The notes under the pieces were generated by a model that saw only the letters and a program-made list of their open reading frames with translations, had not been told where the DNA came from and ran no database searches. DNA of 10,372 bases from Acidobacteriota bacterium (GTDB lineage Bacteria > Acidobacteriota > Holophagae > Holophagales > Holophagaceae), in contig JAJYBX010000031.1 of the NCBI GenBank assembly GCA_021778785.1, forward strand, positions 1 through 10,372, given 5' to 3'. Numbering within the stretch: position 1 is the first letter of the stretch; the number at the start of each line of letters is the position of its first letter. This document shows positions 6,417-10,372 of the stretch, piece after piece. The position numbers and the translations under genes are program-made.

Positions 6417-7421
6417 ATGAAGAAGGTGGCCATCAACGGGCTGGGCCGCATCGGCCGTCTGGCGCTGCGGCACCTGATGAAGGCCCCCCACGTCCAGGTG
6501 GTGGCCGTCAACGACCTCACGGACGCCGCCACCCTGGCCCACCTGATGAAGTACGACTCCGTCCACGGTCCGGCCGACTTCCCCGTGGCCTCCGACGGCG
6601 GTTTCCTGGTCCTGGACGGCCACCGCATCCGCGTCTACGCCGAGAAGGATCCGCAGCTGATCCCCTTCGGCAGCCTCGGCGCCCAGGTGGTGCTGGAGTG
6701 CACGGGCCGCTTCACCCGGCGGGCCCAGGCCGCCGCCCACCTGCAGAACGGCGTGGGCCACGTGCTCATCAGCGCCCCCGCGGAGGACGCCGATCGCACG
6801 GTGGTCATGGGGGTGAACGAGGGCGCCCTCGACCTGGCGAAGGATCGCGTCATCTCCAACGCCAGCTGCACCACCAACTGCCTGGCCCCGGTGGTGAAGG
6901 TCCTGGATGACGCCTTCGGCCTGGACCACGGCTTCATGACCACCGTGCACAGCTACACCAACGACCAGCGCATCCTCGACCTGCCCCACAAGGATCTGCG
7001 CCGGGCCCGGGCCGCGGCCCTCAGCATGATCCCCACCAGCAGCGGCGCGCCCAGGGCCATCGGGCTGGTGCTGCCCCACCTCAAGGGCCGCCTGGACGGT
7101 CTCGCCGTGCGCGTCCCCACGCCGGACGTCAGCATCGTGGATCTCACGGCCACCCTGAAGTCCGACGCGACCCGCGAGGCGATCCACGCAGCCTTCCGCA
7201 CGGCCGCCGACCAGGGCCCCCTGGCGCCCTACCTGGAGGTGCTCGACGCCGAACTGGTGAGCGTGGACCTGGTGGGCAACGCCGCCAGCGCCCTCTACGA
7301 CCCCTTCCTCACCAAGCTCCTCGGCCCCCGCATGGTCAAGGTCTTCGCCTGGTACGACAACGAGTTCGGCTACGCGGCCCGGTTGAAGGACCTCTGCCTG
7401 CACGTCCTGGAGCGGGTCTAG
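6417..7421 (+). CDS. gap: Type I glyceraldehyde-3-phosphate dehydrogenase, canonical copy
   Basis: Phosphorylating GAPDH: glyceraldehyde-3-phosphate + NAD+ + Pi to 1,3-bisphosphoglycerate. The 334-residue length is standard. Visible: NAD fold start INGLGRIGR (6-14), VNDLTD (31-36, the Asp typical of NAD preference), CTGRFTRR, the catalytic SNASCTTNC with C151 and C155, H178 in TTVHSYTNDQ (175-184), LPHKDLRRARAA, the phosphate loop IPTSSGAP, AVRVPTPDVS and the nicotinamide-contacting WYDNEFGY near the C-terminus. All hallmark residues are intact, so this is the likely main glycolytic enzyme. A GGAGG ribosome-binding site precedes the ATG. It is followed after 3 bp by a second, diverged GAPDH; the frequent gap-pgk-tpi arrangement is absent here. 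Confidence 0.97.
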   Translation: MKKVAINGLGRIGRLALRHLMKAPHVQVVAVNDLTDAATLAHLMKYDSVHGPADFPVASDGGFLVLDGHRIRVYAEKDPQLIPFGSLGAQVVLECTGRFTRRAQAAAHLQNGVGHVLISAPAEDADRTVVMGVNEGALDLAKDRVISNASCTTNCLAPVVKVLDDAFGLDHGFMTTVHSYTNDQRILDLPHKDLRRARAAALSMIPTSSGAPRAIGLVLPHLKGRLDGLAVRVPTPDVSIVDLTATLKSDATREAIHAAFRTAADQGPLAPYLEVLDAELVSVDLVGNAASALYDPFLTKLLGPRMVKVFAWYDNEFGYAARLKDLCLHVLERV

Positions 7422-7424
7422 CCG

Positions 7425-8435
7425 ATGAAGACCCTCGCCCTCAACGGCCTGGGCCGCATCGGCCGCCTCGCCGTCCGCATCCTCGCCGAACGGCGCCCGG
7501 ACCTGCTCTGCGCCCTCAACGACCCCGCGCCCCTGGATCAGGTGGTGCACCTGCTCCGCTACGACTCGGTGCATGGCCAGCCTGATCTGCCCATCGAGGG
7601 CCTTCGGGAGGGCGGCCAGGATTTCCTCCGCCTCGGCGGCCGGAAGGTGCCCCTCTTCCACGCCCCGGACCCTTCGGAGATCCCGTTCCCCGAATGCGCC
7701 AGCCTGGTGGTGGAGGCCAGCGGCCGCTTCACGCGACGGGCTGACGCCGCCCGCCACCTGAAGGGCGCCGTCACGCACGTCGTCATCAGCGCCCCCAGCC
7801 CGGACGCGGACCTCACGGTGATCGCCCCGGTGAATGGCGCGGAGCTTGATCTGGCCCGCCACCGGGTCATCTCCAATGCCAGCTGCACGGCCCACGCCAC
7901 CGCCCCCATGCTGCGGATCCTGGACCAGGCCTTCGGCCTCGACCACGCGGGCATGAGCACCGTCCACGTGGTGACCAACGACCAGCGCCTGCTGGACCTG
8001 CCCCACAAGGACCTGCGCCGGGCCCGGGCCGCCTTCATGAGCATCATCCCCACCACCTCCAGCGCCTTCGGGGCGCTGCACCGGGTCATGCCCACCCTCC
8101 CCGAGGGCTTCGGCGGCGTGGCCCTCCGGGTGCCCACCCTCAACGTGAACCTGGTGGACGTGGTGGCGACCCTCCGGCGGGATGCGGACGTGGCGGGGAT
8201 CCGTCGAGCCTTCCAGGACGCCGCCGGGGGGGCCTGGAAGGACCTCGTGGGCCTCGCCGAACCCCACGCCGTGAGCAGTGACTTCACGGGCCGGGCCGAG
8301 AGCGTGGTGATGGACCTGGACCTGACCATGGCCCTGGGCCCCCGCTTCGTGAAGGTCTTCGGGTGGCACGACAACGAGACCGGCTATGCGGCCCGCCTCT
8401 GCGACCTGGTGATCGACCTCGCCGGGCGGATCTGA
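7425..8435 (+). CDS. Diverged GAPDH paralogue with altered active-site motif
   Basis: 336 residues, full-length GAPDH fold, but clearly diverged from its upstream twin. Kept: NGLGRIGR (7-14), D33 in LNDPAP, catalytic C154, H181, TNDQR (184-188), LPHKDLRRARAA, LRVPTLNVN and WHDNETGY. Changed: the usual CTTNC is CTAHA (154-158); SYTNDQ is VVTNDQ; the phosphate-loop glycine in IPTTTGA is Ser in IPTTSSAF; the Tyr of WYDNE is His. These changes lie around the nucleophile and the inorganic-phosphate site, so the enzyme may be active on another aldehyde (an erythrose-4-phosphate dehydrogenase-like role is one idea, though E. coli Epd keeps CTTNC), may act without phosphate, or may be regulatory. It starts 3 bp after gap, probably translationally coupled, and converges on the flavoprotein gene 7 bp downstream. 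GAPDH family certain; exact activity unknown. Confidence 0.92.
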   Translation: MKTLALNGLGRIGRLAVRILAERRPDLLCALNDPAPLDQVVHLLRYDSVHGQPDLPIEGLREGGQDFLRLGGRKVPLFHAPDPSEIPFPECASLVVEASGRFTRRADAARHLKGAVTHVVISAPSPDADLTVIAPVNGAELDLARHRVISNASCTAHATAPMLRILDQAFGLDHAGMSTVHVVTNDQRLLDLPHKDLRRARAAFMSIIPTTSSAFGALHRVMPTLPEGFGGVALRVPTLNVNLVDVVATLRRDADVAGIRRAFQDAAGGAWKDLVGLAEPHAVSSDFTGRAESVVMDLDLTMALGPRFVKVFGWHDNETGYAARLCDLVIDLAGRI

Positions 8436-8442
8436 GCGTCCG

Positions 8443-9675
8443 TCAGCCGAGCGAGCCCGCCGCGAAACCCGTGCTGAAGGCCGCCTGCAGGTTGTAGCCG
8501 CCCACAGGCCCATCGAGATCGAGCAGCTCGCCGCAGACCCGCAGGTTCTCCCAGCCCCGCAGGGCCATGGTGTGCGGATCCACCGCCGACAGCGCCACGC
8601 CGCCCGCCGCCACCTCCCCCCGCGCCAGGGGCACGGGACGCGGCGCCCCCAGGGGCAGGGCCGTGACCAGCGCCACCAGGGTCCGTCGCGCCTCTTTGGG
8701 GAGATCCTTCAACCTGAGATCCCGCGGCAGGCCTGCTTCCGCCAGCAGGGGATCCACCAGCCGCTCGGGCAGGTGACGGCCCAGCCAGGTCCCGGCCAGC
8801 AGGCGCGGGTTCGCCCGGGCCTCGGCCTGCAGCGCCGTGTCCACGGTCTCGGGGGGGTCCACCACCGCCGCGTAGGTCAGCCAGGCCGGACCGCCCCGTC
8901 GGGCCCGCTCTGCGGCTTGGCTCAGCTCCAGGGCCGCGGGGCCGCTGATGCCGGTCTTCGTGAAGAGCGCATCGCCCCGGAAGGCGGCGAGGCGTCGTCC
9001 TTCCGGCCCGGCCGACAGCCGCAGCTCGCCGTCCCTCAGGGCGACCCCCTCCCAGGCGGGCCTCGGGATCTCCAGGGGGATGGGCGCCAGGGCCGGGAAC
9101 CAGGGACGCACGGGGACACCCAGGGCCTTCAGCCAGTCCAGGACTTCGCCCCGGGTGCCGGTCTCGGGATAGCTGGCACCGCCGGTGGCCAGGATCACCC
9201 CCCCCGCGGTCACGTCTTCCCGCTCCAGGCGCACGCCCTCGATCCGTGGCGCACCTCCCAGGAGGCCCGTCACCCGGGCTCCCGTGCGCACGTCCACGCC
9301 TGCCCGGTGCACCAGTGTCTCGAAGGCCGCCACCACGGCAGAGGCACTGCCCGGGCGATCCAGGGGGAACACCCGGCCGTTGTCGCGGACGTAGGTCGCC
9401 ACCCCCTCCCGCCGCAGGAGATCCAGCACGGCCTCACTGCCGAAGGCGTGGAGCGAAGCGCGGAGGAACCGGGCCTGGTCTTTCGTGAAGGCCGCGAGCA
9501 GGGCCTTCGGCGGCCCGTCGTGCGTGATGTTGCACTTCCCCCCGCCGCTGATGCGGAGCTTCACCCCCAGCCGCCCATTGGCTTCCAGCAGGGTCACCCG
9601 GTGGCCCAGGGACGCCGCCCGCCAGGCCGCCACCAGCCCCGCCGCCCCGCCACCCACCACGATCACGCTCGTCAT
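8443..9675 (-). CDS. HI0933/BaiN-like FAD-dependent oxidoreductase
   Basis: A 410-residue flavoprotein of the HI0933 family (often named BaiN-like or 'aminoacetone oxidase family FAD-binding enzyme'). Visible: FAD-binding GGGAAGLVAA (8-17) with the acidic E31 ending beta 2, the family signature RISGGGKCNIT (41-51), ATGGASYPETGTRG in the middle, and the C-terminal FAD-contacting block GELLDLDGPVGGYNLQ with AFSTGFAAG. Physiological substrates of this family are poorly known; a cytosolic redox role is inferred. The start at ATG 9675 places the dinucleotide-binding motif at the N-terminus as usual. The reading frame stays open far upstream, but only through the purE leader repeats, and that extension is not credible. 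It is divergent from purE and converges with the second GAPDH gene. Confidence 0.93.
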   Translation of the reverse strand: MTSVIVVGGGAAGLVAAWRAASLGHRVTLLEANGRLGVKLRISGGGKCNITHDGPPKALLAAFTKDQARFLRASLHAFGSEAVLDLLRREGVATYVRDNGRVFPLDRPGSASAVVAAFETLVHRAGVDVRTGARVTGLLGGAPRIEGVRLEREDVTAGGVILATGGASYPETGTRGEVLDWLKALGVPVRPWFPALAPIPLEIPRPAWEGVALRDGELRLSAGPEGRRLAAFRGDALFTKTGISGPAALELSQAAERARRGGPAWLTYAAVVDPPETVDTALQAEARANPRLLAGTWLGRHLPERLVDPLLAEAGLPRDLRLKDLPKEARRTLVALVTALPLGAPRPVPLARGEVAAGGVALSAVDPHTMALRGWENLRVCGELLDLDGPVGGYNLQAAFSTGFAAGSLG

Positions 9676-9733
9676 GGGTCCATCATGACCGGGTATCCTC
9701 GAGGCATCGTCCGACATCCCGGAGAGGTGACAC

Positions 9734-9934
9734 ATGCTGGATCGACCGCTGGTGGGCCTCATCTTCTTCGCCGACTTCGCTGGCTCAGACTCCTGTTTGC
9801 TGGCCCGTTCGACCGTTCTTCTGGAGGGATGACCCATGCTGGATCGACCGCTGGTGGGCCTCATCTTCTTCGCCGACTTCGCTGGCTCAGACTCCTGTTT
9901 GCTGGCCCGTTCGACCGTTCTTCTGGAGGGATGA
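9734..9934 (+). other. Two identical 32-codon leader mini-ORFs in front of purE
   Basis: ORF 1 runs 9734-9832 and ORF 2 runs 9836-9934. Both encode the same 32-residue peptide: the 10 PurE N-terminal residues [10 protein letters not shown] followed by FFADFAGSDSCLLARSTVLLEG in two stretches of the B element. Each ends with TGA exactly 3 nt (CCC) before the next ATG. Each start has a good binding site: GGAGAGG before the first, GGAGGG (9823-9828 and 9925-9930) before the second and before purE. The arrangement would permit reinitiation or coupled translation into purE. Whether the peptides are made is unknown; they could be by-products of a duplication. Confidence 0.5.
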
Positions 9935-9967
9935 CCCATGCTGGATCGACCGCTGGTGGGCCTCATC
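9734..9967 (+). repeat. Perfect 102-bp tandem repeat (2.3 copies) duplicating the purE start region
   Basis: Units begin at ATG 9734, ATG 9836 and ATG 9938; the first two 102-bp units are identical base for base, and the third is the first 30 bp, which is the real start of purE. Each unit consists of a 30-bp A part (10 codons, [10 protein letters not shown]) and a 72-bp B part (9764-9835 and 9866-9937) that ends with GGAGGG and the next ATG. The sequence upstream of the first ATG (GGAGAGGTGACAC, 9721-9733) matches the end of the B part (GGAGGGATGACCC) at 10 of 13 positions. The period is 34 codons, so all six frames keep their phase through it. The B part looks less GC-rich than the surrounding genes. 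Confidence 0.93.
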
Positions 9968-10372
9968 ATGGGCAGCCGCTCGGACTGGGAGACCATGGAG
10001 CATGCGGCGGAGACGCTGAAGGAACTGGGCATCCCCTTCGAGTCCGAGGTGGTGAGCGCCCACCGCACGCCGGACAAGCTGTTCAAATACTGTGAGAAGG
10101 CGGAAGGTCGCGGTCTGCGCGTGATCATCGCTGGCGCGGGCGGGGCCGCCCACCTGCCGGGCATGGCCGCCGCCAAGACCGCCCTGCCCGTGCTGGGCGT
10201 GCCCGTGCAGAGCAAGGCCCTGAACGGCATGGACTCCCTGCTCTCCATCGTGCAGATGCCCGCGGGCATCCCCGTGGGCACCCTCGCCATCGGCAAGGCC
10301 GGGGCCATCAACGCCGCCCTCCTGGCCGCCGCCATCCTGGCTGGTACGGACGAGAGCCTTCGCGCCCGCCTG
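9938..10372 (+). CDS. purE: N5-carboxyaminoimidazole ribonucleotide mutase PurE, 3' end cut by window edge
   Basis: Class I PurE of de novo purine synthesis, converting N5-CAIR to 4-carboxy-AIR after PurK. 145 of about 160-170 residues are visible. Motifs: [10 protein letters not shown] (11-20), SAHRTPDK (40-47) with catalytic H42, [12 protein letters not shown] (65-76), [19 protein letters not shown] (86-104) and [13 protein letters not shown] (107-119). The start at 9938 is chosen because it gives the standard N-terminus, has GGAGGG 7 nt upstream, and the in-frame ATGs at 9734 and 9836 are cut off by TGA stops at 9830 and 9932. It is divergent from the flavoprotein gene; purK would be a natural next gene but is outside the window. 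The leader holds the 102-bp tandem repeat described separately. Confidence 0.96.

Follow-up and report, generated by a model that had tools for sequence, protein, structure and literature searches.

Introduction

The leader open reading frame (ORF) of iraD in Escherichia coli is translationally coupled to its gene and repressed by CsrA, as far as the account in PMC5574718 goes. A short first cistron that brings ribosomes to a second start, with the ribosome-binding site (RBS) inside the first cistron, is also the principle of the bicistronic design cassettes of synthetic biology. Purine riboswitches and the leader RNAs of Rfam represent another type of control element, located in the 5' leader of purine-synthesis genes. 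Mycobacterial interspersed repetitive units (MIRUs) are known to occur in tandem copies. As described in a 2025 review (PMC12548453), MIRUs are short repeats dispersed over the genome, with a small ORF coupled at the start codon; the same review gives stop-to-start spacings of -4 to +3 as efficient for coupling and those of -4, -1 and -8 as enriched.

Here we describe a leader of purE in a genome of the Acidobacteriota. The window, i.e., the whole stretch of DNA analyzed, is an entire contig (C34; 10,372 bases) of a draft genome that consists of 435 contigs and is 80% complete. Like the coupled upstream ORF of iraD, the purE leader contains a short ORF whose stop overlaps or adjoins the next gene start, a layout through which regulation of the leader ORF can pass to the gene. 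Unlike the iraD leader as PMC5574718 presents it, the purE leader starts with the first ten codons of the gene itself, stands in tandem and contains a core that is conserved at the nucleotide level. It shares with MIRUs the short repeat in tandem copies and a small ORF that would be coupled at a start codon, but MIRUs are dispersed in the description of PMC12548453, whereas the purE unit is restricted to a single gene, whose start it repeats. In contrast to the bicistronic design cassettes, it is natural and bears a conserved core together with the repeated start of its target; unlike the riboswitches and leader RNAs of purine synthesis, it matches no Rfam family. The purE leader is best called a variant of the coupled leader ORF, unusual in that its start duplicates that of its own target and that it carries a conserved core. 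We found no description of a purE leader of such layout among the matches listed in a literature search, which cannot establish that the layout is unpublished.

Results

Two closed leader ORFs precede purE

An earlier note on this DNA had described a perfect tandem repeat with the layout A-B-A-B-A at 9734-9967, where A is the first 30 bp of purE and B is a 72-bp segment that closes with an RBS. Layout, coordinates and unit identity were all confirmed in the window sequence: the period is exactly 102, and the two 102-bp units, 9734-9835 and 9836-9937, show 0/102 differences. An exact tandem of this length is not a chance match. All features are on the forward strand. The first unit consists of A copy 1 (purE codons 1-10, 9734-9763) and B copy 1 (9764-9835), and the latter comprises a conserved 27-nt core (9764-9790), a 15-nt linker of free sequence (9791-9805; 2/15 columns invariant in nine genomes), a second, weaker conserved box, CGTTCGACCG (9806-9815), recognized by the conservation of its offset across genomes, and the RBS GGAGGG of leader ORF 2 (9823-9828), which was read directly. 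The second unit repeats this order with A copy 2 (9836-9865) and B copy 2 (9866-9937), the latter containing the second copies of the core (9866-9892) and the box (9908-9917) and the RBS GGAGGG of purE (9925-9930). A copy 3 (9938-9967), which is purE codons 1-10 proper, opens purE at 9938. The gene (9938-10372) belongs to the AIR carboxylase family (Pfam PF00731, AIRC; 3.3e-62) and is cut by the contig end.

Each A plus B forms a closed ORF of 32 codons with a TGA three bases ahead of the next ATG. Leader ORF 1 extends from 9734 to 9832 (32 aa; TGA at 9830-9832), and leader ORF 2, which is the same as ORF 1, extends from 9836 to 9934 (TGA at 9932-9934). The repeat had been called in-frame; the repeat itself stands, but it does not make one longer purE. 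A single in-frame extension of the gene is ruled out, since a TGA ahead of each start yields two closed 32-aa ORFs and then purE. The first start is preceded by GGAGAGG at 9721-9727, read directly and in register with the later copies, which is the leader that purE would use without any unit; each leader ORF is thus a 32-codon frame with GGAGAGG or GGAGGG 5' of its start. These features support the proposal that a duplicated unit, placed after a copy of codons 1-10, re-supplies an RBS and the purE start. The 57-nt segment 9707-9763 is 84% identical to 9809-9865 and 9911-9967. Given that this likeness begins 5' of the first A, the repeated unit takes in leader sequence too.

Two further features of the window were recorded. 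Its end (10201-10372) overlaps contig C57 (locus L032) by 172 bases with 2 mismatches within purE, and these mismatches indicate that strains are mixed where the assembly breaks. Upstream, two adjoining genes (6417-7421 and 7425-8435), four bases apart, both match glyceraldehyde-3-phosphate dehydrogenase domains in Pfam.

The unit is confined to purE and present in half of the close-type genomes

purE was present in 45 of the 47 genus genomes examined. A close type of purE (at least 87% identity) is carried by 20 of the 47, the window's genome included, and the leaders of all 20 were read. The unit was present in ten of them (one cut by a contig end) and absent in the other ten, in some cases beside near sisters. 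Two units each were found in the window genome (G000), in its nearest relative, Geothrix rubra (isolate Red803, G011), and in G020; one unit each was found in G021, G008, G014 and G045. G018 has one unit with the core and one whose core is lost, the one unit of G032 is interrupted by other sequence, and that of G017, the tenth genome, is truncated at the contig end. Among the genomes with units, G008, G018 and G032 are near-complete. With one genome per species, the copy number between species is 0, 1 or 2.

Several side observations were made in these leaders. The sequence that interrupts the unit of G032 (L008, 1320-1420) is a repeat resembling ACCACCAAGACACCAAG with an inverted partner, and similar sequence also occurs in the purE leaders L004 and L011. 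By eye, a perfect-looking hairpin (CTCAG...CTGAG) lies 5' of the purE promoter region in L015, L016, L018 and L019, and the stems of G014 and G045 differ by changes that seem to compensate each other, again as judged by eye. Three genomes (G025, G026 and G030) have two purE-like genes each, those of G026 being one of the close and one of the distant type.

No unit was seen in the printed leaders of ten distant-type purE loci (L022-L031), which were inspected; the remaining distant-type loci were covered by pattern and model searches only. When up to three mismatches were allowed, the core was found at 12 sites in nine of the 47 genus genomes, which are also nine of the 77 family genomes, and every site lies just 5' of purE. 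A sequence-model search of the 47 genomes likewise gave 12 sites that scored 48-51 bits, each of them at purE, with the next best site at 21 bits, and a scan of genome contigs with a 22-nt part of the core returned seven sites on five contigs (G020, G011, G021, G014 and G045). The search for a source of B elsewhere in the genome, which the earlier note had suggested, thus yielded none at up to three mismatches of the core, and a dispersed repeat as the source of B is ruled out because the core occurs only at purE, not over the genome as a MIRU would. The core was absent from viral contigs in an exact 22-mer scan, and the 204-bp double unit had no blastn match in phages or plasmids; a phage or plasmid origin is not supported by these searches. 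The ten unit-less genomes contained no remnant of the core in up to 600 nt upstream of purE (47 nt only in G036), the best matches having 12-15 mismatches.

Leader ORFs that duplicate the start of a gene were also sought elsewhere, in 400 kb of G008 (12% of the genome, purE not within). An initial scan that allowed as many as 9 mismatches returned 195 hits and was too lax. With stricter settings, 11,091 candidate starts yielded 10 hits, each at 9-11 mismatches. Of the nine control loci, seven were flagged, and the window, where purE has no stop, and G032 were missed; two of the seven flagged controls (G014 and G045), at 10-11 mismatches, are within noise. Considering this performance, the scan excludes only close copies, and only in the 400-kb sample of G008.

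The core is constrained as nucleotides

Only columns 1, 2, 14 and 25 of the core vary among nine genomes, and each of these changes alters the encoded amino acid. None of the 8 core third positions tested varied, versus 75.6% of 135 purE codons in the nine genomes, and each of the 128 eight-codon windows of purE contained third-position changes (minimum, 4/8). At the level of single nucleotides, 2/25 of core columns 3-27 vary, whereas the purE windows (n=411) have at least 4 varying positions and a median of 9; this contrast is smaller than that at third positions but has the same direction. G017, which is outside the nine-genome count, has one further change, in the last core codon. Over 28 pairs of 8 genomes, the mean pairwise difference was 1.7% for the core, 31% for purE third positions and 58% for the rest of B. 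Since the core columns vary only with a change of peptide while third positions stay fixed, the constraint acts on nucleotides. A function of the peptide is not favoured, as every core change alters it.

The weaker box, [TG]CGA[AC]CG, lies 15 bases 3' of the core, with the same offset in 8/9 genomes and one more base in G017. Mean differences were 52% in the linker, 60% in the remainder of B and 31% in the box region; B is one strongly and one weakly conserved block within otherwise free sequence. In G014 and G045 the box is a perfect 10-bp palindrome (CGTTCGAACG). The earlier suggestion of a very recent neutral event does not agree with the presence of homologous units in nine further genomes and with the strong conservation of part of B as nucleotides.

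The A copies track the purE start of their own host in most genomes, with 0 to 6 mismatches in seven; the copies of G014 and G045 differ from it at 10 and 11 positions, respectively. GGCCTCAT is found at the purE start in 10/10 unit-bearing versus 4/10 unit-less genomes, a comparison in which related genomes are not independent.

Most leader ORF stops lie at coupling distance from the next start

Relative to the next start, the leader ORF stop is at +3 in the window genome and G. rubra, at -4, the MIRU-type spacing, in G008, G018, G014 and G045, and at -8 in G020 and G021. Coupling spacing is therefore found in 8/10 unit genomes; the exceptions, G032 (-80) and G017 (-44), have an early stop and a changed last core codon. 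The upstream A keeps its start codon in 12/12 core-bearing units. A shift of one base in either direction removes any stop before purE in six of the eight genomes, though not in G020 and G021. When the whole of B after the core was shuffled, a stop fell within 8 nt of the next start in 61-86% of cases for 101- and 103-bp units, in which the TGA of the next A makes a nearby stop easy to obtain; the same type of shuffle gave only 3-4% for 102-bp units. These results make coupling plausible, with modest statistical support. From the sequence, we infer that the leader would be transcribed and translated and that coupling would operate.

RNA folds and promoters

No common fold was found across 11 units (z-scores, -3.0 to +2.6). 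A conserved hairpin in the core was not supported, as 17% of shuffled cores were as stable. The RNAalifold consensus of nine sequences contains 20 pairs, of which 3 changed on both sides, but its columns are mostly invariant and it was not relied on. We also considered whether the upstream A and core sequester the purE RBS, with a mixed result across genomes: compared with shuffles, the pairing of A plus core with the RBS gave fractions from 0.017 to 0.93 and beat the shuffles in some genomes only. The leader had no Rfam match at the gathering threshold or at E<=1, and a scan for one promoter type detected no sigma-70-like promoter at 9600-10000.

Gain and loss of the unit

A tree was built from purE codons 11-145; it is poorly resolved, with 10/18 inner branches open. 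On this tree the unit label changes 7 times as compared with a mean of 7.4 after shuffling (248/500 shuffles as low), and well-supported branches force only 3 changes. The genomes with a unit do not cluster on the purE tree. The earlier reading of the element as an insert is supported by relatives that lack exactly that segment: the 75-nt leader of G007 is identical to that of G008 (0 differences) and is followed directly by purE, whereas G008 has the unit. The leaders of G037 and G014 appear alike apart from a one-base gap, and those of G022 and G020 differ (47/75, ungapped).

Within a genome, the tandem copies differ at 0/102 positions in the window genome, 2/102 in G. rubra and 0/103 in G020, and between genomes the units of the window genome and G. 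rubra show 7 differences. The identity of copies within a genome, together with the clean presence or absence of the unit, fits recombination between A copies that duplicates, homogenizes and cleanly deletes it, and the identical or near-identical tandem copies of three genomes fit frequent recombination. The patchy distribution would follow from duplication and clean deletion by this route. Judging from the wide spread of the unit and its shared tail sequence, losses would outnumber gains. A contingency switch, in which copy number acts on purE, as the earlier note had proposed, is possible.

Discussion

The explanation we favour, to which we give about an even chance, is that the unit is a leader cistron that is old, is coupled to purE in translation and carries a putative cis element controlling the gene, and that it has been duplicated, homogenized and lost by recombination between A copies. 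One or two short leader cistrons would precede purE, each with its own RBS and with a start that copies purE codons 1-10, and the position of the stop would let the terminating ribosome re-start on the next cistron. A factor that binds RNA or DNA would most likely recognize the core and the weaker box and act through the coupled leader to set purE expression. In its part of the Geothrix group the cistron would be old, and recombination between A copies would duplicate the unit, keep the A copies alike within a genome and delete the unit cleanly. As judged from its conservation, the core is a probable regulatory site. Action as RNA and action as DNA would both suit it, and the fixed distance between the two blocks would also fit a DNA-binding factor. 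Since the core occurs at no other gene, the factor, if any, may serve purE alone. A regulator with one site per genome is unusual, and this counts against the explanation, as do the unclustered presence of the unit on the poorly resolved purE tree and the lack of a common fold and of an Rfam match; half of the close-type genomes are without the unit, so that any function would be dispensable.

The same two conserved blocks could be read without any role for translation. B would then be a second promoter or operator of purE whose core and box bind a transcription or sigma factor, the upstream A being a passive relic. The free 15-nt linker, constant in 8/9 genomes and off by 1 nt in one, the palindromic box of G014 and G045 and the lack of support for an RNA element from folding agree with this reading; against it, the upstream A keeps a start codon in 12/12 core-bearing units and coupled stops are kept in 8/10 genomes. 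In addition, no sigma-70-like promoter, the one type scanned, was found at 9600-10000, and a DNA operator would usually recur across the genes of a regulon, which the core does not. We regard a promoter or operator as rather unlikely. It is also unlikely, and slightly more doubtful, that the unit is a mobile or MIRU-like repeat with its own ORF, which inserts at a start codon and is harmless through coupling; the core would be its recognition end, and the sameness of the core would reflect spread between genomes. Its length of 101-103 bp, its small ORF and the coupling spacing recall MIRUs as PMC12548453 describes them, as does the patchy presence, and the tandem copies are another likeness to MIRUs. 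In addition, the near sisters G007 and G008 differ precisely by the unit behind an identical leader, and presence is unclustered on the purE tree. However, the core stays at one locus across the family (12 sites in 9/77 genomes, at up to three mismatches), the viral contigs lacked an exact 22-mer of it, the phages and plasmids searched lacked the double unit, and none of the window ORFs tested with Pfam, among which 10 proteins gave a match, resembled a recombinase or transposase. The remaining part of B has diverged to the degree expected of neutral sequence, which argues against a recent spread of the whole cassette.

A functionless, neutral tandem duplication whose copies are kept alike by recombination would account for the (near-)identical copies of three genomes and for the absence of the unit from half of the close-type genomes, the conservation of the core then being accidental, through its shortness or through gene conversion among genomes. 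Neutral homogenization should affect B as a whole; between species, however, the core alone is kept and linker and tail differ by 50-60%, and we consider this explanation improbable. An assembly artefact, which would affect the copy number in the window genome, is suggested by the fragmented, incomplete draft and by the two-base differences between the overlapping ends of C34 and C57. G. rubra, however, carries two copies of equal length that differ slightly, and single copies are present in near-complete genomes. The two-copy layout of G. rubra makes an assembly error unlikely as an explanation of the structure, and we hold an artefact to be very improbable.

If the favoured explanation of a coupled, regulated leader cistron is extended, the locus may be a cis-regulatory cassette in which the leader copies the start of its target, recombination keeps the two in step and a dedicated factor reads the core. 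Bounded by copies of the start, such a cassette could be added, removed or multiplied with the gene unharmed, and its number would tune purE over evolution or even between cells; we put this forward tentatively, as a possibility on the unlikely side. The layout makes the leader removable or multipliable by recombination with the gene left intact, which allows a direct test of leader copy number against expression, and G007/G008 and G022/G020 are natural pairs of absence and presence for comparison. If the core is regulatory, the purE leader would represent, in Acidobacteriota, a hitherto undescribed element that controls purine synthesis, and it would clearly exemplify a leader cistron that duplicates the start of the gene downstream of it.
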